The position numbers were made by a program, and so were the translations under genes. The notes under the pieces are model-generated. The model saw nothing but the letters and a program-made list of their open reading frames with translations, made no database searches and was not told the DNA's origin. This document shows positions 5,828 to 58,271 of a DNA stretch of 64,000 bases, piece by piece. The number at the start of each line of letters is the position of its first letter. The first letter of the stretch is position 1. The stretch is from the NCBI GenBank assembly GCA_033816765.1, contig CM066288.1, positions 496,001 through 560,000 on the forward strand. The letters run 5' to 3'. The DNA is from Nothopassalora personata (taxonomy: Eukaryota; Ascomycota; Dothideomycetes; Mycosphaerellales; Mycosphaerellaceae).

Positions 5828-6082
5828 TGTGAGACTATCTAGCTATAGAAAACAGTGTAATATAGTGTGTATGTGCTAAGTCCTAACTAACATAGACCTT
5901 AGTTACCTGATTTACAACACTCCCCCTTTAGACTAACTACTATAAAGACAGTCTAATTAACTTAATATTACCTATGTTGCTATATTAGTCTCGAACACCT
6001 TTACTAGTTCTAGATACTAGGTTTCTACTATAAGCAAGCATATACTAAGGATAGTAATCTTGTTAGATTTATATATATAAGA
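5828..6082 (-). repeat. RIP-altered retroelement remnant (left part), probably Copia-like
   Basis: TA-rich sequence low in CA/TG. A possible LTR end lies at 5919 (...TTTACAACA), followed by a C-rich block CTCCCCC that would be a polypurine tract on the minus strand, so the body of the element would lie to the right. No second LTR was found, so the class is uncertain. It is interrupted at 6083 by element A1 and continues at 8456. Confidence 0.4.
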
Positions 6083-6398
6083 TGTTACGGTCCGGTACGA
6101 TCGTGCACGTGGAAGAACTTCATTCGTTGGGAATAGGGACACGCGCTGCCAATGAGCGGGCGCTCTTGTGTGACTCATAGCAGAGCGCTCTTAGTGCTCT
6201 ACCGAGAGAGCAGGACAGACCGCGCCAAGACATGGCACTATATAGACGACGCTCTTTTGCAAGTAGATAGGAGCTTCGTGCTCAACTCATTTCAAGTATA
6301 CACCATATACTGTTTGGAACCACTACCTTCTCAACGAGTCAGAGACATCACTGCAAAGATCCAAGCCCAGTTGGGATAACGTACAGCGGTTCCTAACA
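6083..6398 (+). repeat. A1 5' LTR
   Basis: 316 bp. The TATA box TATATAG is at 6239-6245. Upstream U3 has short palindromes, for example AGAGCGCTCT at 6182-6191. GTGCTCAA at 6279-6286, about 40 bp after the TATA box, is complementary to TTGAGCAC just inside the element and could be the 5' end of the transcript acting as self-primer. Short open frames in it have no family match. Confidence 0.9.
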
Positions 6399-6401
6399 AC
6401 T

Positions 6402-6409
6402 TTGAGCAC
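6402..6409 (+). promoter_or_regulatory. Putative primer-binding site (self-priming type) of A1
   Basis: TTGAGCAC begins three bases after the 5' LTR and is complementary to GTGCTCAA at 6279-6286 inside the LTR. I saw no tRNA-type TGG start at this position. Inferred by analogy with Tf1. Confidence 0.5.
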
Positions 6410-6424
6410 CACCACCAGGGCACT

Positions 6425-7423
6425 TTGCATATGTCTGGGAGAGACGCTACCCGGAGTCCGTCACGACAACAGCCACAGTCAACTGGCATCACGGAACGAA
6501 TGAGCGAAATGTTGATTACAGGAAGCAGCAAGAACAACAACACTCCTATGGGTATGCTGAACCCATTGGACCACCACCGTGCACCTAAGGTGTCTACGCC
6601 GGAGACGTTCGACGGGACCAAGGACAAACTGGAGGCTTTTCAACTGCAGGTTCAGTTGTACCTTCACTTCAACGCACACCAGTTTCAAGGCGAGGCTTCT
6701 AAAGTCTTGTACGCCGCATCCTTCCTACGAGGAAAAGCAGCTAGAGGATTCCGACCATACCTCAAGGACTGGCTACACAACCAGGGCGAGGGAGAAACAC
6801 CGAAAACGGAAACTCGAAAAATTTTCCACGACTACGACGAGTTTGAGACGAAACTCGATGATCTATACGGGATACCAAATGAGGAGGTATACGCCGACCG
6901 ACATATCCGACAACTTCGACAGACTACTTCTGTAGCGCTGTACGCCTCAGAATTCCAAGGATATGCCGCCGACCTGGAATGGAACGACGCAGCTTTGCGA
7001 TCGCAGTTCTACCTCGGGCTGAAAGACAACGTCAAAGCCGAACTATCCCGAAACGCCAGCGTCGTTACGCTAGGGGCGATGATCAAGGCAGCAAAGGAGA
7101 TCGACGAAAGGCTCCAGGATTTGAGGTACGACCGATTCGTACAGCCTGGATACCAGAGACCCGCCGCGGGCGGAAGAGGGGGCTTCAAGGCCAGAAGTCA
7201 GGACCCTAATGGTTACGGAGACCCAATGGAATTGGACGTAACGGAACGTAGGACAGGAAGGGGGCTGAAGAGCAAAGGTTCCACCTGCTACGTATGTGGC
7301 GAGCAAGGCCACTTTGCAAGAAACTGCAAGAAGAAGAACATGGTTAGCCGCGAGTTCAACGCAATGATTCGCGAAGAGAATACATACCAGGAATGCGAGA
7401 ACTTCTTCTCGAAATCTGCCTAG
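6425..7423 (+). CDS. gag: Gag-like protein of element A1 with CCHC zinc knuckle
   Basis: 332 aa structural protein expected to form virus-like particles and bind element RNA. The middle part (about residues 60-230, including KLEAFQLQVQLYLHF and LYASEFQGYAADLEW) resembles the retrotransposon Gag capsid domain. Residues near 295-308 are a zinc knuckle CYVCGEQGHFARNC (CX2CX4HX4C). The ORF starts 26 bp after the LTR and is fully open. The copy in A2 differs at only about seven positions (for example L/S in SEM(L/S)ITG, D/E and F/H near residue 237-241, and three near the C-terminus). No Pol follows. Strong conservation of the frame suggests recent activity. Confidence 0.9.
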   Translation: MHMSGRDATRSPSRQQPQSTGITERMSEMLITGSSKNNNTPMGMLNPLDHHRAPKVSTPETFDGTKDKLEAFQLQVQLYLHFNAHQFQGEASKVLYAASFLRGKAARGFRPYLKDWLHNQGEGETPKTETRKIFHDYDEFETKLDDLYGIPNEEVYADRHIRQLRQTTSVALYASEFQGYAADLEWNDAALRSQFYLGLKDNVKAELSRNASVVTLGAMIKAAKEIDERLQDLRYDRFVQPGYQRPAAGGRGGFKARSQDPNGYGDPMELDVTERRTGRGLKSKGSTCYVCGEQGHFARNCKKKNMVSREFNAMIREENTYQECENFFSKSA

Positions 7424-7535
7424 CAGAAACAACCTGAGGACAGCAAGGCATCAAACAGCGGCTTCTTGATTTGATGACCTAGGACACAGAAGTCAACACA
7501 ACGACACGGGACAAATGACTACTGGATATCACGAC
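7424..7535. other. A1 spacer between convergent gag and antisense ORF
   Basis: 112 bp. It matches the equivalent region of A2 well as far as about 7512 and then stops matching, so the border between the conserved and the exchanged part of the element lies just before the end of the antisense ORF. Confidence 0.7.
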
Positions 7536-8036
7536 TTACGACGGATGGCCATCGGGCCACGAGAACGGAGAAGCGAGGCCGGCTCCAAGAAGATCGCTCT
7601 CGAGACCAGGGAAGTCCGACAGTTCGGGGTCGTTCGGATCGAACTCTGTGTTGGCGGCGAGGTGGGCTACTTCCTCGTCGACCCGGGAGTTATTCATGTT
7701 TCGAACCTCGCGATTGCGACGGATCCGCTGACGGAGAGCCTCGATCTTTCGGAAAATGTCTTCCGCGGAAATCTTGAGCCGCTCTATCTCCTGCTCGTCT
7801 GACTCGATCTTCTCTGTCAACTCTTCCACGACGCGGTCGAGTTTCTCGAGGGAGGAGGTGACACAAGGTTTCCCGAGGCGGGTGCAGTTGGCACAAGACA
7901 TGATGGAAAAATCGGCAATGTAAACGCAGGGGCGCTGATTCCGGCAACAGTGGTCGCAAGGTTTAGAAGGAACAAAGGGATCAGCAAAGATTTTAGCAAG
8001 ACGACGTTTTTTGCGCTGGGCGGAGGACGAAGACAT
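7536..8036 (-). CDS. Antisense zinc-cluster (Zn2Cys6-like) coiled-coil protein of A1
   Basis: 166 aa, read against the element's sense strand. I chose the ATG at 8036 because the protein then starts MSSSS, as in A2; an in-frame ATG at 8102 is possible. Residues 8-15 are basic (RKKRRLAK). Cys27, 30, 37, 48, 51 and 58 give CX2CX6CX10CX2CX6C, inside the Gal4-type consensus (CX2CX6CX5-12CX2CX6-8C). Residues about 60-115 are charged heptad-like sequence typical of a coiled coil. The tail (about 125-166) is acidic with aromatic residues (DPNDPELSDFPGLESDLLG), like an activation domain. The ATG lies 103 bp from the 3' LTR, so transcription would start in or near the LTR on the minus strand. DNA binding and regulation are inference; a nucleic-acid chaperone is an alternative. 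Confidence 0.75.
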   Translation of the reverse strand: MSSSSAQRKKRRLAKIFADPFVPSKPCDHCCRNQRPCVYIADFSIMSCANCTRLGKPCVTSSLEKLDRVVEELTEKIESDEQEIERLKISAEDIFRKIEALRQRIRRNREVRNMNNSRVDEEVAHLAANTEFDPNDPELSDFPGLESDLLGAGLASPFSWPDGHPS

Positions 8037-8125
8037 GGTAAGAAAAGGGTGGTTGCGGAATTTGAACTTCGGAGGACAGGACCTACTTATGACTAACGAC
8101 ACGTGATCGCTGGGGCATCGATCCT

Positions 8126-8139
8126 AGGGAGGGGGATGG
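8126..8139 (+). promoter_or_regulatory. A1 polypurine tract
   Basis: AGGGAGGGGGATGG directly abuts the 3' LTR and would prime plus-strand DNA synthesis. The same GGGGGATGG is next to the 3' LTR of A2. Confidence 0.85.
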
Positions 8140-8455
8140 TGTTACGGTCCGGTACGATCGTGCACGTGGAAGAACTTCATTCGTTGGGAATAGGGACACG
8201 CGCTGCCAATGAGCGGGCGCTCTTGTGTGACTCATAGCAGAGCGCTCTTAGTGCTCTACCGAGAGAGCAGGACAGACCGCGCCAAGACATGGCACTATAT
8301 AGACGACGCTCTTTTGCAAGTAGATAGGAGCTTCGTGCTCAACTCATTTCAAGTATACACCATATACTGTTTGGAACCACTACCTTCTCAACGAGTCAGA
8401 GACATCACTGCAAAGATCCAAGCCCAGTTGGGATAACGTACAGCGGTTCCTAACA
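8140..8455 (+). repeat. A1 3' LTR
   Basis: 316 bp, appears identical to the 5' LTR, which implies recent insertion. It is followed by the TSD TAAGA. Confidence 0.9.
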
Positions 8456-8689
8456 TAAGAGACCTACTCTTAGACATACTTAGGCCTTATCTTTCCGCTT
8501 TTAGAAGTGAATAGAAGGTTCTCTCGGCTTAAGAAGGTCTAGCTAGGCAGTAACGTACAAACCTCGTAGGTACGCATAAAAGAAGCTAGTTCTTTACTAA
8601 ATAACTCTCTCTACTTTATACTACTTTACACCTCTCTTCCTACCTTTTTAGACTACTATATATACTTATACACCCTAACAACTACTACA
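8456..8689. repeat. RIP-altered remnant between A1 and Copia E
   Basis: Continuation of the remnant interrupted by A1. TA-rich with few CA/TG; no recognisable protein. It ends with the TSD CTACA of element E (8685-8689). Confidence 0.45.
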
Positions 8690-9147
8690 TATTACGTTAC
8701 AAGTGGTTAGAAGTTATAAAATGGGCTTATAAAGGTGTTTTAAAAGCAGGTAGTAGATTGCATATATCTAAGCTAGAATTAAAAGGGCTGCTTATAAAAA
8801 GGCTATAGGTAACTAATTAATGTTACCTGTTAAGATGTAGCATCTTAGGGGGAGCTAACAGTTAGGTTGTAATCTAATAGCCTAAGGCATCCACGATGAC
8901 TCAGCTTGTCGGAAGACACCTTCTCTCCCCTTTAGCTTAGATAGACATCTAACACAATCAACACATTGGTTCCTAATATATTGCTGCATGCCCTGTAGCT
9001 ATTAGCTAGTTGAAGATTAATCTCTTACTCCACTCCGCTGCTAACTACGTATCCTATAAGGTCTCAACTTTACATTACCTAATTCTTAGCCGCTACTACC
9101 TTAGGTTTAATTAGGCTACAGCGCCGGTATACGCTTAGATCGTAACA
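8690..9147 (-). repeat. Copia E 3' LTR, split by a solo LTR
   Basis: After removing 8828-9074 and one TSD copy it is 206 bp, the same as the other LTR. It begins TATTACG where TG is expected, which fits a RIP change of TG to TA, and ends CGTAACA. The C-rich stretch right after it (9148-9156) is the polypurine tract on the minus strand. Confidence 0.85.
8828..9074. repeat. Solo LTR inside the Copia LTR
   Basis: 247 bp, TGTTAAGATG...AACTTTACA, flanked by the 5-bp TSD TTACC (8823-8827 and 9075-9079). It starts with a hairpin TAAGATG/CATCTTA. It has more CA/TG than its host and so is probably younger. No matching internal region is in the window; parent family unknown. Confidence 0.85.
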
Positions 9148-11327
9148 CACCCCCTTAGCTCGTGCGGCTTATAGGTGAATAAGCTAATCGCATGTAATCG
9201 CGTGTACCCTATCTATTACCTATCACCCTACCTACCTACCTATAACGTAAGGCGTCGTTACTATACGCTTGTTAGAGCTCTATTGTGAGCTATATAGTAA
9301 GGCGCTAAGTTAGCGTTTTAGGTGAGGCTATTGTCCTAGCCTTACATCCCTATTTACAATCTTACTAAGTCCCTTACACTGCAGTTAACCTATATAATAG
9401 GTTCTAAGCGATGTGATTCTTATCCGGTAGGGTAGCTAAGCTATTCTTATAGTACTAAACGGTAAGGCGTGCTATCTCCCTATATTTTAACGGACATATA
9501 AGGTTGTAGATTCGAGTCCTAGGGGTTATTATATCTACTAAATTTATTACTTAGCCTATCGTCCGCTTTAATGTCCGCTCTATTCTTAATTAAAATCCTA
9601 GGTATTATAGTACGCTGTTACTTCGGCAATTAGGGTGCCTTACTACTATCTAATAACTACGTATATATAACTTCGGTTACGGTCTTAGAGAACTCCGCTT
9701 CCTACCTTAGGTAGAGATTACCATTTAGCTACGTCCTAGTAGGAACTCTTTTACCTAATGAAAGGTCTTTATAGCTTATAAAGGCCTTATCTTTCTACTT
9801 AGGGAAAGGGTAATCCTATCGACGGTAGTGCTACAGGTGCTACATACCTAGCGGGTAGAGATGTTGTCTCTAAGTAAGGTAAGGACGATAATAGAGGGAT
9901 TAACGATAATGTTATAGCGTTCGTTATAATATAGTAACGGATGTAGTGATAGTAATACTAATGCTACTAGTAGTAGGGAAGTTAATAGTGTTTCGTGTTA
10001 CGGTCCGGTACGATCGTGCACGTGGAAGAACTTCATTCGTTGGGAATAGGGACACGCGCTGCCAATGAGCGGGCGCTCTTGTGTGACTTAGAGCAGAGCG
10101 CTCTTAGTGCTCTACCGAGAGAGCAGGACAGACCGCGCCAAGACATGGCACTATATAGACGACGCTCTTTTGCAAGTAGATAGGAGCCTCGTGCTCAACT
10201 CATTTCAAGTATACACCATATACTGTTTGGGACCACTACCTTCTCAACGAGTCAGAGACATCACTGCAAAGATCCAAGCCCAGTTGGGATAACGTACAGC
10301 GGTTCCTAACATTTCGGCGCTCGTAATTAGCTACGCCGTTACTAGTACGTATACGCTATACCGCTACTAGTAATAGGGGTGTTTCCGGTCCTTTTACTAT
10401 AGGCTAATAGGAGTCCGAGAAACACCTACTAGTAATAGTAGTACTAGGGCAGCGCCGGTGAATAGTAGACGCTTACTCTAGCGGTAGCGGCGCTAGCGGC
10501 GCTAGGCGGTAGTACGGAGCCGGTAGAGGAGACAGTAGTACCGAACATACTATATAACCTCTACCGGTCCATGTTAGTTAGTTAAGGAAAGAGGAAGGGT
10601 TTAGACCTAAAGAGGTGTTTTTATATAGTCCTACTACTAGTTCCTTCCTAATATAGTATAGAAGGATAAAAGGGAAGTCGCGCTTAGTAGTAGCTAATTA
10701 CTATGTCGTTCTATATCGCTACTATAATACGCCAAGGAGAAGAGTCCTATAGTTAAAGCCTAGTACTAGTAACTGTCGAGAAGAGCTACTACTAGTATAG
10801 TAGTAGGCCTACGCTTCTTAGGCGTTGTTATCACCCCCTAAGGTAATGCGGCTAGTATTAGCATCTATAGTAGGCGCTAAGGAGCGTAGGTCTACGCCTT
10901 CCTTAGCTATATTAAGCAGCTCTACGAAGCGCCTATACTTTTGTAGTAGTAGTAGCTTAGTAAGCCTATCTATAGGTATGTCGTTAGTATTAAGATACCG
11001 AATCTCGATATCTCCTCGCTAGTTTCTCTAGCGGAGCTAGTAGTAGTAGATGTTAATATAGCGTAGCTTAGTGTTAAGCTTTTACCCTTACTAGTTAATA
11101 AGTCGAATAGTCTAGGTATTGTTATAGTATAGGTGTATATACTAGTTAAACTCGAGATAGATCTCGGCGAAGATGCGTTCCTACTAGATTAGCTCTAATG
11201 CCGCTTATAATAGGCTAAGGAGTTCGGCTTCGGTTAAGGACTTAGTAATAGTAATCTACTTAGATACTTTATAGTCGACTAGTCTGCCGAAGAGCATAAA
11301 GATCTATCCGCTAGAGCTAGTCCTATC
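9148..11327 (-). pseudogene. Copia E 3' part with RNase H remnant (interrupted by a solo LTR)
   Basis: At about 11050-11330 the minus strand reads a Copia RNase H segment, including LTEAELLSL and, after TAG read as Trp/Gln, a WWERIFAEI-like run. The rest (about 9160-11050, apart from the A-type solo LTR) holds no protein I can recognise; it may be a long 3' non-coding part or another decayed piece. Confidence 0.65.
9996..10311 (+). repeat. Solo LTR of the A family (A1-type U3)
   Basis: 316 bp, very like the A1 LTRs with a few base changes, flanked by the TSD TTTCG (9991-9995, 10312-10316). Not RIP-altered although embedded in RIP-altered Copia DNA. Its ORF-like stretches are LTR sequence, not genes. 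Confidence 0.92.
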
Positions 11328-11519
11328 TATTATAAGTAGGTGTAAGTACGTAGTCGGATAAGGTATAAGTCGAATAGACGGTCTATCTAAGAGAGGTGCG
11401 GAGGGCGCGAGGTAGATATATAAGCGCTAAGCCCTCGGGCCGGCTTAGTTAGCGGCGCGCGCGGGGTCTACGTACGTGCGCGCGGGTTTAAGTAAATAAT
11501 AGGCGCCGGTACGGTAACA
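11328..11519 (-). repeat. Element D 3' LTR
   Basis: 192 bp. It contains TCGAATAGAC (11370-11379), which on the element's strand is GTCTATTCGA, the proposed self-primer. Next to it at 11520-11530 is the C-run that is the polypurine tract on the minus strand. Confidence 0.85.
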
Positions 11520-14500
11520 CTACCCCCCCTTCTAAGAGTACGCTCCGGAGTACTCTTTCCTCCTCTTACATCTATTATTGCCATTATAAATGTCTCATCA
11601 TCTATTAGGTCGTTATCTATTACGTCTATCTCGTCGTTCGTCGTATCGTACGTACCGTCGTTACTCGTTATCTCGTCCACCTCGTGACTATCTATAATGC
11701 TACGTAATGTAGGTAGACTATTACGGCGACACGGCGTAGTAACCTTAGTTACTATCCGGACGGTGTCCCTCCCGTATGTACTAAGCTCGTCGTATAGGCG
11801 CCCTATACCGTAGTAACTCGCGCTATCTAGGCGGCTATATACTATGTTCTAATAATTATTAGCTCCGCTACTATTATAACTCGCGCTACGTAGGAGCTCG
11901 GCTTTAGGTACTCGGTCTACTTATTAAATAGGATCGTTATTGCGACGCGTATCGCTCTCTTTCTTATAAGTCCTAAGGCCTAGTCCCGCCGGTATTAGAG
12001 CCATCGCTACTGCATTAGGACCTATGCGCGCTATGCGCATACCTATAGCATTCTCATTTACGACCTAGTCTATAGGTAGTTAAAAACTAGGTAGTTTAGT
12101 CGCTCGCGGGTAGTTGTAGTACAAGTCGGCTATAGAGGCGGCGGTAGTCTCGATAACCTAATCCGTAGCTTTATAGGATAGCCGGTTATATCTAACGTAC
12201 TTCACTAGGTACTCCTAATATAGCTACCTACCTCCTACTAGTACTCGGCTACGCGGCCATGTCTTCTTATAGTCGAGGATCTACTCGACTTCCTACTAAT
12301 CGGGCTCGGCTAGGTTCGCGTCGGGTTAATGCTACTCGTCGTTAATAATACGGATCGGTAGAGGTGCGGGTTAAACTTATCCTTACACTAGTAGGTGCAC
12401 TAGTGCGAGAAGATACGAATAAAAGTAGTTATCGATATTTATAGTAGGTAGGAGCTCTACTTTATAAGTGTTACCCGGAAGCACCTCCGTAATTACGTGT
12501 AGGCCTAACTACCTAACATCTATCTTTCTCGAAGGGCGCTCTATAGCCTAGTTCTTAGTGCTAACCTACACCTCGTCGCCTTCGTTATATCGAGGTACTA
12601 GCGTACGATTCTAATTAGCGTACTTAGCCTATACGGCTTATGCTAACGCTATCTACTAACGAAGGTATTATTGCATATCGTGCATCTTTACTATAAAGCG
12701 GTCTACTGCTTTAGTATCTAAGCGTTACCTATAGGGTATAAGTAGCATTAGGAGGTCTAGCTCGAGTTTAGAGAATCTTAGGTTACGACTAGTGTTAGTA
12801 TAGAAAGGTAATACACCTATTATAGCTAATACTACGTTATTAGCTATAAACTTAGCGAGGGGAGTCTAATCTAGCTAGTCGTCCTAGGCGTAGTTAACGA
12901 ACATTCGCTAATACTACTCTATTGCCTTATTCGTATTCTTAGACTATCTATTAGTCTTAGGGTAGTATACTAATAAAAGCTTTTACTTAATCCCTAATAA
13001 AGCGTAAAGGCGTCTCTAGAATGCGGATACCTATTATGTGCCTCGGTTAGAGACGATGCTCTTCGGTAGTCCGTACCTACTAAACACATATCGTAGATAT
13101 ACGAGCGCTATATATTCCGTACTTATTAACTAGACTAGGATTATGTGTTTCTCCTTCGTAAGTCGGTAGGTAACTGTAAGGGCATTCTTATAGGTTTACC
13201 TATCTAGTGCGCTCTTGCCTTTCGGTAACTAAATAACGAAGTCTATCGCTATATCCTCCTATGCTACGAAGGGAACCGGTAACGGTTTTAGCAACCCTAG
13301 GTATTAGATGTTAGTACTCTTATTTATGCGGTATATTCTATACGCCCGTACGTAGTTCTTAACGAATCGTACTATGCCTAGCTACACGTAATTACGTGCT
13401 ACTAACTCGTACGTCTTCTTATCGCCTATGTAGCCGGCGACCGTATAGTCGTAGAAGGCCTATGTTATACAAGTACGTACGGGCACCTCGCTATCGTCGA
13501 GTACTTCTTCGGATTCGGGCGGCACGAATAGGCTATATCCGCCGTAGATATTCTTTATATATATTATGCCTCCGACGGGTACTACGTACCTATCATCTAG
13601 GCGATACTTACGTAGTAGGGAACACGGCTAGTCGTTCTCTAGTTATCGCACTACTTCTTTAGCCTCTAGCTATGCGTACAGTTCTCGGATCGTAGTCGTT
13701 AGAGGTATAACGACATTATTCGCGTAGGCGCTTAGTCGCGTGGACGAGATATTAAGTATACGATCGGGGCTAAGTAAAATCTAATGCTACTATTAGTTAC
13801 GCGGATCACTTAGACCCCCTAGCTTCGGTAGGTCTTATAAGCGTCTCGTTAGGCTATCGGGCTTCGTTCCCTACACTCCTAGTCTATATACAATCTTAAA
13901 GAAGAACTAAGAGAGGAACTCGGCCTATCTTACCTAGCGACGATTTAATTACTTCGTGCTTATAAACCACTCTAGGTTCTTACAGTTAGAGTACACGAGC
14001 GTCGGCTTATCCTCTACTAACTCTGGATTAGGTAGATTTTTATAATCATCTATACCGAACTCGTTAACGGTAAGCTCTAGACGCTATTCCTTAAAGGCTT
14101 AGACGATAGCTAGTAGCTCCTTATTATAGATGTCGTAGTTATACTACTGTAGATCTATCTTCTTAGATATGTATACGATTAAGTGCAACACTCCCTCCTA
14201 ATCTCTTTACGATAGGACTGCCGTAGTTATATAGTCTAAAGCGTCTATTTCTAGGATAGTCTCACGCCCTAGGTAGAAGTGCTTTAATGTTAGCGTATTA
14301 ATAAATACTTACTTTAATACATCGAATGCTTATTAACAAGCCTCTAACCATTCCTATAGTACATTCTTACGGGTTAGCTTAGTTATTAGTAGGTAGATCT
14401 TACTAAAGTCCTTAATAAATCTACGATAGAAATTGGCGAACCCTATAAACGACAGTATGTCGGTAACATTAGCGGGTGTAGGCTAGTTCTTAATACATTT

Positions 14501-16560
14501 AATCTTCTTAGGGTCTATCTTAATCCCCTTGTTCGTAATAATAACTCTAAGATATGTAGTTTCGTGCCTAAAAAACTTACACTTATCGATATCTAATTAT
14601 AGTCCCGTAGCATCTAGTCTCTTAAGGACTTTCATTACATGTTATATATACTCTTCGCGTGTCTTACTAAACACGAGTGTATTATCGAGGTAGTAAGAGA
14701 TAAAGTTATCTAAGAACTCTCTTAAGGTGTCGTTAATAAACGACTAGAAGGTACCGGGCGTATTGCATAATCTAAAAGGTATAACTACGCATTTAAACTG
14801 CCTATATCTTATCGTGAAGGCTGTCTTCTATTTATTACTAGCTATAATGCGGATGCGGTTAAATGCTATAATAATATCTAGCTTAGTAAACTATTATACG
14901 CCTACAATACGATCTAGCGTTTCTTAGAAGAGAGGAATAGGATAACGGCTCTTCGTAGTAATTGCGTTTAGGGCTCGGTAGTCGACGTAGACTCGTAGTC
15001 CACCTCCTAGCTTCTTAACTATTAGGATAGGTACTACTACTAGTAATACGCTACGTTATATTACGCCCTTCTTAAGTTAGTCGTCGAGCTATTTCTTAAT
15101 TACCTCGTTCTCTCGTGTAGAGAAGGAGTATAGTCGTCGAAAGGGCGGTATCTAGCTAGCCTTAAGCTTAATCTCGTAATCGATACCTAGTCGTCGCGGT
15201 AGTACTTTGTCTACCTCTTTACGGCTAAATAGTCTTACCATTTCCTAAAATTCTAGCGGTAGTAATAGGATTGGGTCCTAATCCTTATCCTTTAGATTCA
15301 TAAACTTTTAATGATCGTCTACCGATATAGCGGAGGCATTTAGTTACCACTAGGTGTATTTACCATAGGGCTCTTACTCTTTTCCCTCTATGTAGTCCTA
15401 GGTATTACTATCTACTAGCATTGCCGCGTCGCCTCCTTATACTAGCTTTACTCGTATACTAAATGCCTTTAATGCATACGTAGACAGTGGATCACGGGCT
15501 ACCTACCTATCTAGGTCTTCTTTAGGATCGAACATCTACATTATGTAAATCTTACATCCCTTAAAGCCTTTACGGCGGCTTATACGCCTTAGGGCTTTAG
15601 CAGTAATGGGCTGGATGTCGATTTTAGGTTCTAACGCTACCGAAGCCTTTTTCTCGGTGCGTCGTACTAGTCGTTTTAGAGTGTTAGGTCCGTCCGCGGG
15701 TAGAGGATGCCGTACGTGTTATAACGACTCTACCTTATCTTACACCTCTATAGGAGGCGTATGCCTTATCGTAGCTTTCGTTAAGTGCGTCTCTTACACT
15801 ACCGCTAGTTCCTTATCTTCGATAAAGGGCTATATATACTTCGGTATCGGAACCGGTAACGGCTCGGGCATAGGTATCTCTATCTATAAGATGCTAATAG
15901 GCGTAATGCCCTTATCGTTAATAGATTACACGCACATAGGCTCGTCGCCTAGTATGTAGTTCTCTCGGCAATACTGTAAAAACAGGGTTATAGTTCCTAA
16001 CGTATAGTAGAATATAGGCTAATGCTCGTCGTACTATAGACGGCCGAGGATAACATCGTATTCTAGTAATGTGCAGTAGCTAACTCGCGTCTTAACGTAG
16101 TTACTGATTTAGACCTATGCCGTTATTTTATAGGTAATTAGTTTACTAGTAGGTTAGCTATCTACTAACATTAGCCCTATGGGGTCAGGCAATTAGATTA
16201 GATTAAGTTCATTTCTATACGTAAAATCGATATTGAAGTACGTAGAGTTAGTACCGTTATTATAAAAGGATTAAGTAGGGATCTTACTATTTACTATACA
16301 TAGCATAACTAGATAAGAAGCTATTACTAGGTTGTGTTTATCTATAGAATGGTTTACTACTAGTAGGGAGTGTACTAATATACTTAGTCCCTTACCTCTA
16401 TCTAGAGGCTTCTTTTCATAATCTCGTAACTCTCATAACTCTAACTCGTCTCGTCTACTGTATGTTACGCTTATAGAGTAGACTATGCGGTTTCCGAACC
16501 GCCGCCGGTAGTGTTATTACTACTATTACGTTAGTTGTTCTTTAGATTATAGCCTAGAGC
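11450..16560 (-). pseudogene. pol: Element D pol remnant
   Basis: The C-terminus (DDETF...PERTLRRGGSVTVPAP, about 11480-11610) matches the C-terminus of element C Pol. The RT active-site region at about 14649-14702 reads [16 protein letters not shown] against [16 protein letters not shown] in C, so the second Asp of YLDD has become Asn, as RIP would produce. Many TAG codons. End points are estimated by alignment with C. Confidence 0.75.
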
Positions 16561-18530
16561 GTATAGACGACGGCTAACATCCTTTAGTAGGTATTAGTCG
16601 TAGTCGACACGACGGTAACCTATCTCTTCGTACTTTATATACTTGTTCTAGTCGATGCATACTTATACCTTAGCAGTATCTAGTAGTTATAGGTACTAGT
16701 ACTTCTATAGGCGATCGGCCTACTTAGTCTTAGAGTTAGGATTAGTAGGCGTGTTATTACTTCCGCCTCCGCCTCTACCTATACCTCCGTCCTTCTTACT
16801 GTCCTTATTATCGTTACCCTTAGTGTTCTTACTAGGGGTCTTCTTATTATACTTAAGGTTATATTGCTCGAATTTGTCCTTATAGTTATATAATGTAGCT
16901 ACGACCTACTCGAGGGTTATGCTAGCGGTATCGTCGTTTATAATGCGGTTCTCGTATCTCGCATTTAGCTTACGTAGTAGGAAGTCCTTTTCGAGCTTCT
17001 TCTCTATAGCGCCTCTATCTAGATCGACGATGTCTACATTCTCGCGGAAGTTAGGGTAGAATTCGCTAAACTTCTTATTAGTACCTTATTCTAGAGTAGT
17101 AAGCTTCGTTAAAGTAGTAGCATAAGTATTGCGAGTGCCGTAGCGGGCTACTAGGTCGTCTATTATGTCGTTAACCGAGGTATAAGCCGCTATCGTGCCG
17201 TTCGTAACCTTAGTAAGACTCGGTATCTTAGAGTCGATATACTTCTAAGCCGAGTTCTTAAGCTAGCTCTAGACGTTCTATAGTAACGTAGTAACGGTAC
17301 GGTACTTAGAAGCTACTAGCTTAGCTTTAGCGGTACGCTGCCACTCCTCGAACTTAATGCCCTTCTTATCTTAGGGGTTAAACTCCTTCGGTGCCTTCGG
17401 CTCGCTTAATAACTTAATACTAGTAGTTATAGTAGAGTCGTAAGTAGTGTAGCGTAACTTCGGTTCCTTACTCTTACTATTCTTCTTAGACCTCGAGCTC
17501 TTACGCTTACGACTATAATAACTACGCTCGTCGCTATCGGACGAGTCGGAATCGGAAGAGTCTAAAGATAGGTCGTTATCTACACGAGTAGGCTTCTTAC
17601 TACTATTCTAACGACGCTCTAATAACTCTTCGGATTTAGTTCGCGGAGGCGGTAACTCCTTCCGTAAGTCTTTACGTTACTTCGACCGGCTACGCTTCTT
17701 ACGCTTCTCCTTCTTAAGCTCCTTAATGCGCTTCTTAGCATCTACGAGCTTCGACTTAGCGTCCTTACACTATGTACGGTACACTACCTTCGCGGCCTTA
17801 ACCGTAGCTAACTCGGTCCTAGCCTTGTCTAACTTATCTAGGTCGATAATAACTTTATCGGTGTACTTAGTAAGCTCGGCCTTTAGCTTATCTACCTCGG
17901 CTTGCCTCTAATCGGTATCTACCTATATAATAGCTACTTTATCCTTAAGACGGTCTATCTGTTCCTTCGCGTCCTTAGCCTTACGAATGTTAATGCGGTT
18001 AGCTAGTTAGAGTGTGTCAATCGTCTTATAAGCTCGTCTATAATCGGACTCGATGTCGCGGAGGATTTTATAGATCTCGATAGGGTAGTCGTTAACTCGC
18101 TTCTTAAGTTTCTTAGTACTTAACCCGTTAAGGGACTCGAATGCGTCTTGAAACTAATTAATAGTAACCTCCTCTTCTTCGTTCCTAGGACGAGTTCGTT
18201 GTTCTCGTTCTTATCCTTAGTTACATCCTCGATATACTTATTACTATATAGGTTAGCTAAGTTAAGCTCGGCCTCGGCGTCCTCCTCTTTAATCTCTTAG
18301 AGTCGGTCGAATACCTTCTTATGCTACTTATAATAGGTGTTGTTCTCGGTAGTAAGCTGCCCTAGGACCTCCTCTTCTCTACCTTATGTTTATGTCGCGT
18401 CGGCGTTTATCGCGTCGGTCGGTAGGACGAAGAGGGAGGATCTACTAATATTTACGCGACGTACGCGCCGGTTAGTATACGCCGTAGCGTCGTCGTCGCT
18501 ACCGTCATTCTTTCTCGCTATAACTGTCGT
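16455..18530 (-). pseudogene. gag: Element D gag remnant
   Basis: At about 17341-17430 the minus strand reads TTSIKLLSEPKAPKEFNP, matching TTGIKSSTEPKAPTKFDP of element C Gag. Boundaries are estimated from C. Frames are interrupted by TAG codons. Confidence 0.7.
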
Positions 18531-18666
18531 GTTAGCCTTAGACTTACTTAAGGTACGACTCGATTAAGTCGGGTACCTAATATCTTAGTACTTTCTCGCG
18601 TACTGTCGCGTTACTCTTACGATCTCCCGATTGTAGCTTCTCGTGTCTTACTATACGTTAGTAATA

Positions 18667-18676
18667 GTCTATTCGA
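18667..18676 (-). promoter_or_regulatory. Putative self-priming PBS of element D
   Basis: On the minus strand TCGAATAGAC lies two bases inside the 5' LTR and pairs with GTCTATTCGA in the LTR (intact in the 3' LTR copy at 11370-11379; the 5' copy has one C-to-T change). Confidence 0.6.
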
Positions 18677-18678
18677 AG

Positions 18679-18870
18679 TGTTATAAGTAGGTGTAAGTAC
18701 GTAGTCGGATAAGGTACAAGTTGAATAGACGGTCTATCTAAGAGAGGCGCGGAGGGCGCGAGGGAGATATATAAGCGCTAAGCCCTCGGGCCGGCTTAGT
18801 TAGCGGCGCGCGCGGGGTCCACGTACGTACGCGCGGGTTTAAGTAAATAATAGGCGCCGGTACGGTAACA
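18679..18870 (-). repeat. Element D 5' LTR
   Basis: 192 bp, TGTTATAAG...CGGTAACA on the plus strand, paired with 11328-11519 and followed by the TSD CTATC. Confidence 0.85.
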
Positions 18871-18875
18871 CTATC

Positions 18876-21496: not shown

Positions 21497-21702
21497 TGTC
21501 ACGAGGCTACAGTGCGAGAGTGCAGGGGTGTAGTATTAACAAAGTCGATAGCTAAAGAGAGAAGTAGGTTCTAAGGTCGAGGCCTATACTTAAGGGCCGA
21601 GGTGTCGCGGGTCGGCTTCGGGCCGGGCTGAGTCATCCTGGTCACGTGCTCTGAGGTCACGTGATCCATCCCAAATCCTTCACTTGCGGAGCGGCCGTGA
21701 CA
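21497..21702 (-). repeat. Element B 3' LTR
   Basis: 206 bp, TGTCACGAGG...GGCCGTGACA. The pol frame runs into it and stops at 21571. On the minus strand a TATA-like AAGTATA is followed about 34 bp later by AGCTATCGA, the proposed self-primer. Confidence 0.92.
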
Positions 21703-24700
21703 CCACCCCCCCCTCAAAACACCTTCGTCTCGAAGCGTGTGACCTTGAATCTTCCTTAGTGCATATGCGAAGGCTTCATCATCCTCCATACCATCCGTTT
21801 CATCAAGCAGCTCCATCTGAGCGGCCTCGATTGCTTCGTCCGTCGACGTTGTATCCGTCGTTGCATTAGAAGCAGGCACCGAAACCCCTTCGCTATTGCC
21901 CACAGCAACATTAGAAGGCGTGTGGTCACCAACAGGAAGAGCCACAGCACCGGTGCCGACAGAGGGCGGTCGTGCTACTGTGGTTACCTGAGGTGCCAGA
22001 TCCATAATGTGTACATCTGCTTCAGGTCTCATATCGCGCAACGTTTCATTTGGGATCCAACCAGGTGGCGGATGAAAGTTGACCGGTATGGACTTGGTTG
22101 GGTTGTTATGCTTGAAGTCTGCGACTGCCTTCGGTGCATCTTTGCACACTACGCTCGCGGGCTCCCAAGTAGACTCACTGTCCAAGTAACCTTTCCATTT
22201 CACTAGCATGGTAATGCCTCTGCCCTTCGGTTTGGAGTCCAGGATACGCTCAACCTCCCAGGTCTTGAACGTGTTGCCGGTCTCGTCCGTGACTTCGATC
22301 GGTGGCGGCCTCGCATCATCTTCCGGATCTGCGAGTCTGAGGAGATTTGAGTGGAAAGAGTTGTGTACGCGGATCTTATCTGGAAGGGCAACACTGTAAG
22401 CATTCTCACCGAGTGCGGTAGTGACAGTCACTGGTCCAAACCACTTGACGTCGAGCTTCTTCGCTGGGCGTGATGACTTCCAGTTCTTGGTGTTGATGTA
22501 GACATGGTCGCCTGGCTCGTATCGTGGCGGCACCGTGCGGTGCATGTTGGCATTATCAGCTTGCAGGGCTTGGTCGTAACGCAAGCATTCATGGAGATGT
22601 GCGTGGAGGTCCTTCATTTGCTGGGCGAACCGCTCTGCTCCCTCAGCGCTCAGACGTTGCTTGGTCGGCATGAGGCGCTTAGGCAGTGTATCGCCGTTAA
22701 AGTTACCTGTGCGAGGATTGCGGCCTCGCTCAGCGAAGAAAGGCGACACACCAGTGGCTTCAGTAGCGTGGTTGTTCTTCGCAAACTCCGCAAGGGGTAG
22801 CCACTGCACCCAATCTCCTTGTGCGTAGTCGATAAAGACGCGGAGATACTTCTCCATTTCCTTGTTAGTGTTCTCAGACTGCCCATCCGTCTCAGGGTGG
22901 AAGGCTGTAGACAGCTTGTGGTCTATGCCGACTAGTTCGCAGAAGCGCTGCCAGAAAGCTGACAGCCACTGGCTCCCTCGATCGGTGACAATGGATAGCG
23001 GCGCACCATGCAGGCGGTAGTAGTCTCGCACGAAGACTTCGGCGATGTACTCAGCCGTCATCTCCTTGACGGGAATCATGTGACAACCTTTGCCTGTGCG
23101 ATCCGTGATTGTGAGAGCGTTAGTGTATGTGACGCCATTGCAGTCGGTGCTCTCTGGCAGTCCCACTACGAAGTCCATAGCAATCTCGTCCCATAACTCA
23201 AAAGGAATAGGCAGGGGCTTCAGCAGGCCTGGGTATTGGGTCTGCGAAGGCTTGGACGAGCGGCATTCGTGGCACTTAAAGACCTTGTTGCGGACGTACT
23301 GCGAGAGGCCGGGCCAGATGAAATCGCGCGTAATCAGTTCGAAGGTCTTTGCTCGACCTGGATGCCCTGCAGAAGGGGTGCTGTGATAGGCCTTGAACAC
23401 CTCGAAGCGCAGATCCGGAGCATCAGGCACGAACACGTTGTATCCGCCGTACCTATTCTTCATGTAGATCAGGCCGCCTATAGCGACTGCGTCGCTGTCG
23501 TCCATACGGTGACGACGTAGCAGTCCACAAGGTTCTCCGGCATCCAGCTCTCGTAGGGCCTGTTGCATTTCTGGTGCACCATAAGCAGTGCGAATTTCTG
23601 TCATAAGGTCATTGCCTTCGGGGCGGATCTTCATAGGTGAAATGTTGAGAAACCTGTGCTCGGGCAGCAGGGTTTGCTCTTGATGTTGTCGGCGCGGGTC
23701 CTCATCGCTGGCAGGCACATCTTGCGGTCGACGAGTCAGCGTGTCAGGCTTGATGTTGGTCTTGCCAGGGATGTAGACGATCTTGAAGTAGAACTGTGAC
23801 AAGAACTCGGACCAGCGGGCCTGTCTGCGGTTGAGCACTTTCGTGCTTGTGAACCATTCGAGATTCTTGTGATCTGAATACACGAGAATAGGCTTGCCAC
23901 TCTCATCAGTGAGGTTCTCGAAGTCGGTATCCTCGCTATCCCCGTCGATGTCCCCTGAAATTAGCTCAGGCTTCCATTCTTCAAAGGCTTTGACAATGGC
24001 AAGGAGCTCCTTGTCGTAGATGTCGTAGTTGCACTCCTGGGGTGACATCTTCTTAGACATGAATGCGACAGGACGCCATACGCCATCCTCACCCTTCTGT
24101 GACAGGACTGCTGCAGTGACGAAATCTGAGGCATCAGTTTCGAGCTTAGTTTCGCGTCCTGGCACGAAGTGAGCGAGCACTATGTCCTCTTCAGCAAACG
24201 CCTGCTTCATGCAGTCGAAGGCTGTTTGGCAGGTGTCATCCCACAGCCATGGCACATCTTTCTTTGTCAACTGTGTCATGGGATAAGCGATGCCTGAATA
24301 GTTGCGAATGAACCTGCGGTAGAAGTTGCAGAAGCCTAGGAATGACAGGATATCGGTTGGGTTGCGTGGCGTCTCCCACTCTTGGATGGCTACAATCTTC
24401 TCCTTGTCCATCTTAATACCCTCGGCTCCAATGACCAGTCCGAGGTATTTGGTCTCCTGAACGTGGAACTCGCACTTGTCGATATCGAGCTGGAGACCAG
24501 CTGCCTGAAGCTTGGCCATCACCTTGTCCACGTGCACGATGTGTTCTTCCAGAGTATCGCTGAAGATCAGGGCATCGTCGAGGTACGCCGAGGTAAAGTC
24601 GTCAAGGTATTCTCGAAGGGCGTCGTTGATGTATGACTGAAAGGTCCCAGGGGCGTTGCAGAGTCCAAACGGCATTACTAAGCATTCAAACTGGCCATAT

Positions 24701-26157: not shown

Positions 26158-26198
26158 TTCCTGTGTCGGACCATCATCTGTTGCGCTCAGAAGATGGC

Positions 26199-28271: not shown

Positions 28272-28419
28272 GCTGGCCGACGTGCGCCTTTCTGGCGACT
28301 CGGGGAAAGAGAGAGCACTGCGCTATCTTTGCGCTAGTGCGAGTCGGGGATTTCGAGGAGTCGCGATGTCGCGATTTTTGAGCTGAGCGGCGCTGAATGT
28401 GGCAGCGTCCTTGTTGGCG

Positions 28420-28428
28420 AGCTATCGA
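28420..28428 (-). promoter_or_regulatory. Putative self-priming PBS of element B
   Basis: On the minus strand TCGATAGCT lies two bases inside the 5' LTR and is complementary to AGCTATCGA in the LTR (28479-28487). Confidence 0.6.
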
Positions 28429-28430
28429 AG

Positions 28431-28636
28431 TGTCACGAGGCTACAGTGCGAGAGTGCAGGGGTGTAGTATTAACAAAGTCGATAGCTAAAGAGAGAAGTA
28501 GGTTCTAAGGTCGAGGCCTATACTTAAGGGCCGAGGTGTCGCGGGTCGGCTTCGGGCCGGGCTGAGTCATCCTGGTCACGTGCTCTGAGGTCACGTGATC
28601 CATCCCAAATCCTTCACTTGCGGAGCGGCCGTGACA
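28431..28636 (-). repeat. Element B 5' LTR
   Basis: 206 bp, identical by eye to 21497-21702. An open frame that seems to cross from here into Copia DNA is only a chance fusion. Confidence 0.92.
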
Positions 28637-35909: not shown

Positions 35910-36102
35910 TGTCACCGTACCGGCGCCCATTCACCTCGATCCGCGCGCACGTGCGTGGGCACCACAAGCGCGCCGCTGACTAAGCCGCTGACTAATCGGC
36001 TTGGCGCTCCCTTAAGTATCTCGCGCTCTCCGCGCCTCTCTTAGATAGCTATCTATTCGACTTGTACCTTATCCGACCACGTGCTTGCACCTGCTTGAGA
36101 CA
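35910..36102 (+). repeat. Element C 5' LTR
   Basis: 193 bp, TGTCACCGTA...CTTGAGACA. TTAAGTATC at about 36012-36020 is TATA-like. ATCTATTCGA at 36051-36060, about 34 bp further on, pairs with the PBS. Confidence 0.92.
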
Positions 36103-36104
36103 CT

Positions 36105-36114
36105 TCGAATAGAT
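36105..36114 (+). promoter_or_regulatory. Putative self-priming PBS of element C
   Basis: TCGAATAGAT starts two bases after the LTR and is exactly complementary to ATCTATTCGA at 36051-36060. In element D both partners differ by the matching base (TCGAATAGAC and GTCTATTCGA). Confidence 0.65.
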
Positions 36115-36252
36115 CATCACCAACGTGTAGAGAGACACGAGAAGCTGCATTCGGGAGATTGCAGAGAAACCGCGACAGCACAAGGTGCTGAGATCAGGTG
36201 TTGGACTCGACTGAGTCGCACCTTGAAGTAGGTCATAGCTAACACAGCAGCA

Positions 36253-43325: not shown

Positions 43326-43448
43326 CTAAGCCGCTGACTAATCGGCTTGGCGCTCCCTTAAGTATCTCGCGCTCTCCGCGCCTCTCTTAGATAGCTATCT
43401 ATTCGACTTGTACCTTATCCGACCACGTGCTTGCACCTGCTTGAGACA
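43256..43448 (+). repeat. Element C 3' LTR
   Basis: 193 bp, identical by eye to 35910-36102, followed by the TSD AGAGC. Confidence 0.92.
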
Positions 43449-51423: not shown

Positions 51424-51716
51424 TGTTAGGAACCGCTGTACGTTATCACAACTCGGGCTTGGATCTTTGCAGGGATGTCTCAATCAGTTATGAAGGTAGT
51501 GGTTCCAAACAGTATATGGTGTATACTTAAAATGAGTTGAGCACGAGGCTCCTATCTACTCGTAAAGAAGCGTCGTCTATATAGTGCCATGCCTTGGCGT
51601 GCTGCTCGTCTGCTCGTCTGCTCGTCTGCTCGTCTGCTCGACTGCTCGTCTGCTCGTCTGCTCGTCTGCTCGTCCAATGAAGTCTTCTTATGCTGTTTCC
51701 GTTCCGAACCGTAACA
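51424..51716 (-). repeat. Solo LTR of the A family with a third U3 type
   Basis: 293 bp, TGTTAGGAAC...CCGTAACA, with TSD TAGAG (51419-51423, 51717-51721). The R-U5 half matches A1 and A2 closely; the U3 half differs from both and has a tandem repeat. Not RIP-altered, so younger than element H around it. Confidence 0.9.
51602..51674 (-). repeat. 8-bp minisatellite CTGCTCGT in an A-family U3
   Basis: About nine head-to-tail copies of CTGCTCGT, one with an A for T. It lies upstream of the TATATAG box of the LTR, where A2 has repeated CTCTCTG units instead. Confidence 0.9.
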
Positions 51717-56215: not shown

Positions 56216-56534
56216 TGTTAGGAACCGCTGTACGTTATCACAACTCGGGCTTGGATCTTTGCAGGGATGTCTCAATCAGTTATGAAGGTAGTGGTTCCAA
56301 ACAGTATATGGTGTATACTTAAAATGAGTTGAGCACGAGGCTCCTATCTACTTGCAAAAGAGCGTCGTCTATATAGTGCCGTGTCTTGGCGTGATCTTTC
56401 CTGCTCTCTCTGCTCTCTCTGCTCTCTCGAGAGAGCACCCGAGAGCACTGAGAGCACTCTGCATATCGGGTGCATCCGCTGGTCTGCTGGCATCGATTGG
56501 TTGGCTACGGGCTTCCCCAGACCGATCCGTAACA
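56216..56534 (-). repeat. A2 3' LTR
   Basis: 319 bp. U3 (right part) has the perfect 16-bp palindrome GCTCTCTCGAGAGAGC at 56421-56436 within repeated GAGAGCAC and CTCTCTG units. The R-U5 part matches A1. Confidence 0.9.
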
Positions 56535-56548
56535 CCATCCCCCTTCTA
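56535..56548 (-). promoter_or_regulatory. A2 polypurine tract
   Basis: On the minus strand AGAAGGGGGATGG abuts the 3' LTR; it matches the A1 tract. Confidence 0.8.
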
Positions 56549-56607
56549 GCCTAGCTTCGTCCCGAAGCTTACAAGATGTCATTCCTTTCCAACTTTGTCA
56601 TCCAACG

Positions 56608-57272: not shown

Positions 57273-58271
57273 CTAGGCAGATTTCGAGAGAAAGCTCTCG
57301 CATTCCTGGTATGCATTCTCTTCGCGAATCATTGCGTTGAACTCGCGGCTAACCATGTTCTTTTTCTTGCAGTTCCTTGCAAAATGGCCTTGCTCGCCAC
57401 ATACGTAGCAGGTGGAACCTTTGCTCTTCAGCCCCCTTCCTGTCCTACGTTCCGTTACGTCCAATTCCATTGGGTCTCCGTAACCATTAGGGTCCTGACT
57501 TCTGGCCTTGAAGCCCCCTCTTCCGCCCGCGGCGGGTCTCTGGTATCCAGGCTGTACGTGTCGGTCGTACCTCAACTCCTGGAGCCTTTCGTCGATCTCC
57601 TTTGCTGCCTTGATCATCGCCCCTAGCGTAACGACGCTGGCGTTTCGGGATAGTTCGGCTTTGACGTTGTCTTTCAGCCCGAGGTAGAACTGCGATCGCA
57701 AAGCTGCGTCGTTCCATTCCAGGTCGGCGGCATATCCTTGGAATTCTGAGGCGTACAGCGCTACAGAAGTAGTCTGTCGAAGTTGTCGGATATGTCGGTC
57801 GGCGTATACCTCCTCATTTGGTATCCCGTATAGATCATCGAGTTTCGTCTCAAACTCGTCGTAGTCGTGGAAAATTTTTCGAGTTTCCGTTTTCGGTGTT
57901 TCTCCCTCGCCCTGGTTGTGTAGCCAGTCCTTGAGGTATGGTCGGAATCCTCTAGCTGCTTTTCCTCGTAGGAAGGATGCGGCGTACAAGACTTTAGAAG
58001 CCTCGCCTTGAAACTGGTGTGCGTTGAAGTGAAGGTACAACTGAACCTGCAGTTGAAAAGCCTCCAGTTTGTCCTTGGTCCCGTCGAACGTCTCCGGCGT
58101 AGACACCTTAGGTGCACGGTGGTGGTCCAATGGGTTCAGCATACCCATAGGAGTGTTGTTGTTCTTGCTGCTTCCTGTAATCGACATTTCGCTCATTCGT
58201 TCCGTGATGCCAGTTGACTGTGGCTGTTGTCGTGACGGACTCCGGGTAGCGTCTCTCCCAGACATATGCAA
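57273..58271 (-). CDS. gag: Gag-like protein of element A2 with CCHC zinc knuckle
   Basis: 332 aa, almost identical to the Gag of A1, including the capsid-like middle and the knuckle CYVCGEQGHFARNC. It differs at about seven residues, clustered near 29, 237-241 and the last 16 residues. Starts 26 bp inside the 5' LTR. Open throughout. Confidence 0.9.
   Translation of the reverse strand: MHMSGRDATRSPSRQQPQSTGITERMSEMSITGSSKNNNTPMGMLNPLDHHRAPKVSTPETFDGTKDKLEAFQLQVQLYLHFNAHQFQGEASKVLYAASFLRGKAARGFRPYLKDWLHNQGEGETPKTETRKIFHDYDEFETKLDDLYGIPNEEVYADRHIRQLRQTTSVALYASEFQGYAADLEWNDAALRSQFYLGLKDNVKAELSRNASVVTLGAMIKAAKEIDERLQELRYDRHVQPGYQRPAAGGRGGFKARSQDPNGYGDPMELDVTERRTGRGLKSKGSTCYVCGEQGHFARNCKKKNMVSREFNAMIREENAYQECESFLSKSA

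Follow-up and report, generated by a model that had tools for sequence, protein, structure and literature searches.

The 64-kb window analysed here (the whole stretch of DNA, 64,000 nucleotides) contains an LTR retrotransposon, A1, which has gag and, on the opposite strand, an open reading frame for a small protein with six regularly spaced cysteines. Is this frame a gene, and if so, what might its product do for an element that lacks pol?

The A1 element and its neighbours

A1 is a young gag-only element. Its parts, apart from the domains of the antisense protein, are as follows.

6083-8455: A1, the whole element
6083..6398, plus strand: 5' LTR of 316 bp (TGTTACGG...TTCCTAACA), same sequence as the 3' LTR
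6083..6237, plus strand: U3 of the 5' LTR, the part exchanged with the cassette, stopping just before CTATATAGACG
6278..6285, plus strand: GTGCTCAA, presumed R start and self-primer, about 40 nt past the TATA box
6402..6409, plus strand: TTGAGCAC, candidate primer-binding site adjoining the 5' LTR, Tf1-like self-priming
6431..7423, plus strand: gag, 330 aa (Retrotrans_gag and zf-CCHC knuckle, from Pfam matches)
7517..8294, no strand: exchangeable block of antisense ORF, spacer, polypurine tract and U3 (from identity profiles of six element pairs)
7536..8036, minus strand: antisense ORF (the "cassette"), 166 aa, putative Zn2Cys6-like regulator
8127..8139, plus strand: polypurine tract adjoining the 3' LTR (from the sequence)
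8140..8455, plus strand: 3' LTR, with its U3 part (8140-8294) upstream of the antisense ORF

Pol is absent, and by its LTR pair, target site duplication (TAAGA on both sides), gag, polypurine tract and primer-binding site A1 is a non-autonomous, gag-only member of the Ty3/gypsy group. The gag product matches PF03732 (E 7.9e-11) and PF00098 (E 2.8e-6). GTGCTCAA at 6278-6285 and TTGAGCAC at 6402-6409 are complementary over 8 nt, as would be expected of Tf1-like self-priming; 14/14 gag-only representatives share this complementarity between the candidate primer-binding site and an R start presumed from sequence, and all 14 have TTTGAGCACC at the 5' LTR end. Target site duplications are present in 19 of 23 elements, gag-only and gag-pol together (missing in L032, L053, L055 and L059). 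The antisense ORF lies at 7536-8036 on the strand opposite to gag, where an earlier reading of the sequence had placed it, and the U3 of the 3' LTR is its presumed promoter. A scan of 5900-8700 against Rfam gave no match. A solo LTR of the A1 class, with the duplication TTTCG, is found at 9996-10311, 1.5 kb downstream of A1.

The window holds a second gag-only element, with another cassette and another U3:

56216-58616, minus strand: A2
57273..58265, minus strand: A2 gag, 330 aa
56608..57168, plus strand: A2 antisense ORF, 186 aa, six cysteines

A structurally equivalent frame had been reported for A2, and it is indeed there, at the same place. When the six frames of the window were searched for the six-cysteine pattern, three matches were obtained: the A1 ORF, the A2 ORF and a 35-aa scrap. 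Two Ty3/gypsy elements of 7.1-7.5 kb, at 21497-28636 (minus strand) and 35910-43448 (plus strand), gave no six-cysteine antisense ORF in this search, so that some elements of this kind here lack the gene. Both have an upstream ORF of 690 aa (presumed gag), a pol ORF (1511 and 1608 aa, respectively) and LTRs of 193-206 bp, and the first alone gave a detectable chromodomain. Direct repeats of 193 bp, the third such pair (11330-18873; 7.35 kb apart, 97% identical), probably mark an older LTR element, and an LTR on the minus strand at about 51420-51716, whose U3 start matches the L032 class, is probably a solo LTR or remnant.

The antisense gene and its product

The A1 minus-strand ORF is a real gene under purifying selection. 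In the assembly searched (54.5 Mb, 40 contigs, the window being on contig C2) it has 26 copies without a stop, and relatives at 63, 61, 41 and 27% identity are also open; other relatives carry stops. The A2 version has 32 near-identical matches, five of them with one TAG. The cassette protein is identical in 16 copies for A1 and in 19 for A2. Two further cassette queries found additional open classes, and at least 14 cassette versions occur in the genome on one gag backbone. In a census of gag (121 scored copies at 98-100% identity, from 1045 first-look candidates) 118 copies proved to be followed, 3-292 bp downstream, by a convergent cassette belonging to one of 14 classes, and at least one of these cassettes has a stop. 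The other three have no cassette listed: C7:937812, C5:5269824 and C4:100182, the last being L043, where the cassette is truncated.

In an alignment of 19 versions, those other than A1 being 20-63% identical to it, the only invariant columns are the six cysteines; a 30-sequence alignment, which took in 15 outside proteins picked for a complete cluster, adds one invariant leucine. In 12/12 pairs the antisense frame has a pN/pS ratio of 0.13-0.66 and diverges most at third positions, and the other two frames of that strand give 0.95-3.07; one opposite-strand frame, which shares third positions, gives 0.18-0.68 but has 3-9 stops per pair. Measured between classes, since copies within a class are too alike for it, dN/dS is 0.08 for L048/L057 (dN 0.07, dS 0.85) and 0.15 for A1/L031 (dN 0.30, dS 1.94). 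The sequence-only reading had argued that the frame was not accidental, had named a dN/dS near 1 as evidence to the contrary and had proposed a search of all copies of the family; the ratios far below 1, the 26 stop-free copies and the census agree with it. A1 taken alone has no significant Pfam match, which would suit a chance ORF or a functionless passenger. We reject such an origin, which is hardly credible in the face of purifying selection, invariant cysteines, a cassette beside 118 of the 121 scored gag copies, and its recurrence in gag-pol elements and in other fungi.

Many old cassette relatives have TAG or TAA stops, which look like the work of RIP. The truncated cassette of L043 (G000:C4:96000-102200) retains the six-cysteine cluster, with most of the coiled coil and the tail gone; it might act as a dominant-negative form.

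The domains of the A1 protein are:

7863..7958, minus strand: six-cysteine cluster, residues 27-58 (from fold matches and alignment)
7650..7853, minus strand: long helix or coiled coil, residues 62-129 (AlphaFold2, pLDDT 97-98 for residues 71-120)
7539..7649, minus strand: acidic, aromatic tail, residues 130-166 (model confidence low)

The cysteines are residues 27, 30, 37, 48, 51 and 58 (C-X2-C-X6-C-X10-C-X2-C-X6-C). Net charge is +6 in the 26 residues before the first cysteine and -9 in the last 55. The AlphaFold2 model has two short helices after the cysteine pairs and then one long helix (62-129), a modelled coiled coil following the cluster, by which dimerisation is predicted. The tail is a candidate activation domain; the last 55 residues are acidic in 18/19 versions and contain at least one tryptophan in 18/19. 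L058, read from its first methionine, lacks the N-terminal arm. Sequence, model and alignment thus confirm the cysteine positions, basic arm, coiled coil and acidic/aromatic tail that had been described for A1.

Zn2Cys6 clusters have the spacing C-X2-C-X6-C-X5..12-C-X2-C-X6..8-C, and the fungal factors that bear them (LAC9, PUT3, PPR1, HAP1, Leu3, Pho7) combine six cysteines with short helices, a coiled coil and an acidic tail. The cassette protein resembles these factors in its six-cysteine spacing, two short helices, coiled coil and acidic tail, the spacing being that of A1 (loops X6, X10, X6), A2 (X6, X8, X7) and the versions grouping with them. It differs from them as follows: the lysine/arginine-rich loop of 12 host Zn_clus domains is missing from most versions; one group (L042, L044, L048, L057, L058, L059 and L060) exceeds the usual spacing with a first loop of 11-13 residues; and A1 and A2 score 10.1 and 10.4 bits, respectively, against the 21-bit cut-off of Pfam Zn_clus (PF00172). 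For the last reason we call the protein Zn2Cys6-like and do not file it as a member of PF00172.

Matches to profiles and structures, though weak, agree in pointing to fungal Zn2Cys6 factors. More versions match PF00172 than any other Pfam family (6/19 at E<=2, best E 5.5e-4). Among the matches listed for the A1 ORF as query there is one long frame, of 771 aa (E 3.6e-4), and this frame belongs to a host gene in which PF00172 is clearly recognised (E 4.2e-9); the genome has 112 Zn_clus matches, which together with the RIP-like stops of old copies mark it as fungal. Comparison with the 12 host domains by hhalign gave a probability of 61 (P 8e-5). In a PDB sequence search LAC9 came second of 50 and aligned with its cysteines in register (E 0.1), the best match and most others being unrelated helical proteins. 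The top two Foldseek matches are Pho7, and 12 of the 13 VIA-align matches listed are zinc-cluster factors, with LAC9 at 1.7 A over 33 residues; the absence of any other fold among the Foldseek and VIA-align matches does not count against other folds. The proposal that A1 encodes a minimal fungal transcription regulator, for which a fold comparison with Zn2Cys6 proteins had been suggested, is supported to this extent: the nearest solved folds are Zn2Cys6 proteins, and each score is individually weak.

Exchange of the cassette together with U3

The 14 gag-only representatives, compared in 91 pairs, agree in 95-100% of the nucleotides of gag (median 98.9%) and in 24-86% of the residues of the cassette protein (median 33%); A1 and A2 share 99% of gag and only about 26% of the antisense protein. 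Mantel tests on these representatives tie gag divergence to that of R-U5 (r 0.92, p 0.006); the cassette shows no correlation with gag (r 0.00, p 0.46) and a weak one with U3 (r 0.22, p 0.02). Identity was also profiled in 50-column windows for five gag-only pairs and one gag-pol pair, and in 6/6 the divergent block consists of the antisense ORF plus U3. Up to the gag or pol stop identity is 88-100%, except for a 76% dip in the last pol window, and in some pairs it stays high as much as 100 nt past gag. Across cassette and U3 it is mostly 30-70%, higher with related cassettes such as those of A1/L031, and from the TATA box through R-U5 it is again 88-100%. The return to high identity starts at the TATA box at the latest and about 65 nt ahead of it at the earliest (A1/A2); the block start at 7517 is that of A1 and A2, and the block end varies over this range.

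The same arrangement is found in elements which possess pol. Six 9.9-kb loci around cassettes without a full A-type gag beside them were examined, and each proved to hold a gag-pol element in which a cassette of the same family precedes the 3' LTR in antisense orientation. These elements are 6.9-7.4 kb long, with LTRs of 378-528 bp that are 99-100% identical, a gag about 37% identical to that of A1 and pol ORFs of 1135-1190 aa. L051, L052 and L056 have gag in one unbroken ORF (about 670-700 aa), and in L053-L055 the gag ORF is shorter or split; the cassette ORF listed for L056 has an altered N-terminus and is missing the first cysteine pair. The pol of L052, the one of the six that was scanned, matches RVT_1 (E 1.5e-38), RVP_2 (E 3.7e-12), Integrase_H2C2 (E 2.8e-18), Chromo (E 2.4e-15) and SH3_Tf2-1 (E 1.1e-15), and with protease (AP), RT, RNase H, integrase and chromodomain it is a Tf1/sushi-type chromovirus. 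Across R-U5, gag and pol (5.6 kb) L052 and L055 show 97% identity, and BLAST of this pair found no alignable cassette or U3 except for a 48-nt match. As minor observations, residues 408-432 of L052 gag match the Pfam WCCH motif (PF03716, E 3.1e-7), and L041 has a 72% gag fragment that comes from a neighbour.

Homologues of the cassette protein also occur outside this genome, the named sources (Cryoendolithus antarcticus, Cladosporium inversicolor and Elasticomyces elasticus) all being Dothideomycetes. The six-cysteine pattern is kept in 23 of the first 28 outside proteins, the five without it including short or cut pieces; of three later ones P0033 and P0034 are without the full set. Scans of viral contigs with P0013 and with gag as queries found no relatives. 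In the cassette tree gag-only, gag-pol and outside rows (species being named for a minority of the latter only) are intermingled, and the 14 gag-only rows need 11 label changes.

L059 and L061 share the same cassette protein and an identical U3, yet their R-U5 regions are 94% alike, one near the A1 type and the other near the A2 type; the pair represents a recent exchange. Divergence of the cassettes in place was considered and rejected on three grounds: the contrast between cassette and gag in A1/A2, the mixed tree, and an A1 cassette that is 82% identical to the outside protein P0001 over 69% of its length. Many cassette types thus stand on one backbone and are swapped together with U3, a larger pattern than the first reading of A1 had seen. 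The elements appear to exchange the antisense gene along with the piece of promoter that is probably under its control.

An antisense gene beside the 3' LTR has been described before. In Boty/BcGypsy1 of Botrytis cinerea and Sclerotinia the gene brtn is found after pol and ahead of the 3' LTR, in the orientation opposite to gag-pol (Zhao et al. 2011, via PMC7264820, PMC8365987, PMC4227169 and PMC5987419), so that Boty, as far as the accessible parts of these sources go, is likewise a fungal Ty3/gypsy chromovirus with an extra antisense gene in this position. The elements described here differ from it in including gag-only ones and many cassette types. Those same parts mention no zinc cluster, cassette exchange or pairing with U3, and brtn is set apart by this description; brtn and the cassette gene may nevertheless be of the same family. 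The plant elements Grande, RIRE2 and PvRetro13 have an antisense ORF next to the 3' LTR (aORF-3R; PMC7264820), and Retand has the antisense gene TRP28 between pol and the 3' LTR (PMC11963269). The function of such ORFs in plants and Botrytis is given as unknown (PMC7264820). The plant genes, as excerpted, belong to other protein families (TRP28 and others), and the excerpts do not mention swapping of ORF and U3 between near-identical backbones. The sequence-only reading had known of no gag-only element with such an ORF. The antisense layout has precedents (brtn, aORF-3R and TRP28), so that what looks undescribed in the portions of the literature consulted is at most the identity as a zinc cluster, the setting in gag-only elements and the exchange of cassettes. 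The titles and abstract openings listed, a scope that mostly leaves subscription literature aside, named no zinc-cluster gene in an LTR element.

U3 motif arrays and the possible role of the protein

The U3 blocks are 149-288 bp long and contain repeated 6-mers about 20-160 bp upstream of the TATA box, often 8-12 bp apart and in several classes in both orientations. The motifs are:

A2 and L052: AGAGCA
L050 and L053: CAGATC
L035: CTGATC, which occurs with CTGAGC in L048, L057 and L060
L055: ACTGATC
L032: CGAGCA, 18 times
L031 and L059: GGTCGA

When 6-mer repetition in U3 was compared with 200 dinucleotide shuffles in 19 classes, 14 beat all of the shuffles and so have class-specific arrays. 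The observed value was reached once for L051, by 8 shuffles for L042 and by 33-41 for A1, L058 and L059; the array of A1 itself is not significant (33/200 as high). By the same measure R-U5 is at chance in 14/14 elements, and slices of gag, pol and cassette give z of -1.7 to 1.8 except for one pol (3.8) and one cassette (2.9). The scores of L032, L044 and L034, whose arrays are plain tandem repeats, and of L053, with a duplicated U3 end, are inflated; part of the array signal may be due to repeat slippage and not to selection for sites. Paired CGG is the site type of the Zn2Cys6 family, from which the repeated motifs differ in being mostly GA[T/G]C or GGTCGA. The sequence CGG-N2-CGG at the LTR start was set aside as a class-specific site, being present in 7/19 classes (A1, A2, L031, L032, L048, L053 and L055); it is possibly a site common to the classes.

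A self-specific regulator would be expected to look like this: the antisense gene of a DNA-binding protein, lying beside a site-dense upstream region, passed on and exchanged with it in one block, the core promoter being spared. We consider it probable, with modest confidence, that the cassette encodes a self-specific activator, an antisense zinc-cluster DNA-binding protein which raises transcription of its own LTRs through sites in the U3 of its own class. This gene of the retrotransposon would be transcribed leftward, from the 3' LTR or the spacer, and its product would be a small zinc-cluster protein that forms dimers and has an acidic tail for activation. The protein would recognise the short sites that cluster in the U3 of its class immediately before the TATA box, and once bound would raise transcription from these LTRs. 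Gene and sites adjoin, and after reverse transcription both LTRs would carry the U3 of the 3' end. Recombination or a template switch within the common backbone would therefore swap regulator and sites as one cassette, and in this way one gag lineage would come to have many mutually diverged regulator/site pairs. We prefer activation to repression or anti-silencing on account of the tail, which is acidic and in most versions includes tryptophan.

Another reading is that cassette and U3 are merely adjacent, the arrays being read by host factors or produced by slippage and the protein having another job such as integration targeting or RNA or capsid binding. Array similarity follows cassette similarity (r 0.23, p 0.01), and it follows the DNA-binding and C-terminal halves equally (r 0.23 and 0.23, 5-mers). 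Plain linkage would give the same result, so that the correlation does not demonstrate recognition; similar TGATC/TGAGC arrays moreover accompany distant cassettes (L035, L040, L048), and some arrays are plain tandem repeats. On the other side, the arrays differ among classes within one genome that has a single set of host factors, motifs in both orientations in several classes are not produced by slippage alone, and the exchanged block ends near the TATA box, though shared homology there would also place the crossover. We regard mere adjacency as very unlikely. As regards targeting, a tRNA scan of the loci, a weak test with the bacterial code and mostly short flanks, gave none in 44/48; the four matches, all tRNA-Pyl (L048, L052, L054 and L056), look spurious.

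The protein might alternatively bind the U3 arrays of its class and remove or block repressive chromatin there. VANDAL, whose VANC proteins suggest this reading, is a DNA transposon. In Arabidopsis the element-encoded VANC proteins bind family-specific repeats, and in the excerpted account VANDAL resembles the cassette system in having a conserved core, a faster-diverging DNA-binding protein and non-coding target repeats which differ by family (PMC5735166). The same account sets VANC apart by a different protein, by loss of DNA methylation as the effect and by binding that has been shown. The RIP-looking stops make pressure from host defence plausible, and L059, with 25 nt of the U3 GACGACC array and one further base distinguishing its 5' LTR from its 3' LTR, indicates that arrays change quickly, during or after insertion, as VANC targets do. 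The combination of Zn2Cys6-like cluster, coiled coil and acidic/aromatic tail is, on the contrary, the classical layout of an activator, and anti-silencing appears unlikely to us. The VANC domains DUF1985 and DUF287 are absent among the best 25 of the 78 Pfam families matched by the 19 versions. We had also considered the L059 LTR pair, 92% identical, as a recombinant; the 25-nt array change and the one mismatch explain it.

A third possibility is a self-limiting repressor, in which the antisense protein from the 3' LTR would shut off sense transcription of its own class and limit copy number. This is the manner of HTLV-1 HBZ, an antisense transcription factor expressed from the 3' LTR which keeps CREB-2/Tax off the 5' LTR and lowers its expression (PMC10186651). 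As far as the excerpted source goes the layouts agree, each having an antisense transcription-factor gene (putative for the cassette) at the 3' LTR, and a switch to a new cassette would allow escape from existing repression. HBZ differs in being a retroviral bZIP protein, not a zinc cluster, and in down-regulating the 5' LTR. The acidic tail suggests activation, and the 16 (A1) and 19 (A2) copies with an identical cassette fit strong self-repression less well; we judge a repressor distinctly improbable. On the partial accounts cited, VANC would be the closest functional parallel, Boty brtn and the plant antisense ORFs the closest structural ones, and HBZ the parallel among retroviruses.

Extended to the whole family, the self-specific activator would form a modular lock-and-key system, each class pairing an antisense factor with a matching U3 array, and cassettes being traded by template switching on a gag or gag-pol backbone to yield many independent self-activating (or self-protecting) subfamilies. 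We offer this wider scheme tentatively, as falling a little short of probable; such trading would plausibly let elements escape cross-regulation or silencing. Since a single genome offers at least 14 naturally occurring pairs of cassette and U3, on backbones that hardly differ, the function of an antisense gene becomes a question for a 14 x 14 matrix. Should the pairs match, they would show how selfish elements evolve private control of transcription, provide an independent parallel to VANC and HBZ, and constitute a natural panel of diverged zinc-cluster proteins and candidate sites for the study of how DNA recognition evolves.

Some further structures deserve mention. The LTRs of L053 and L047 contain a tandem duplication of the initial 50-80 bp of U3 (TGTTACGG...). 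A stop-bearing, L042-like cassette (80% identity; 4 TAG and 3 TAA each) gave fourteen equal-score matches on contigs C9, C20, C21, C30, C31, C33, C34, C39 and C40, twelve of them on the small contigs C20-C40, perhaps through subtelomeric or satellite-like amplification. Lastly, six A1-type units, all with gag and cassette, lie head to tail at 2056-bp spacing at G000:C12:1355698-1367583 and are a tandem array sharing LTRs; the same arrangement, with two units, is found at L049 on C5.
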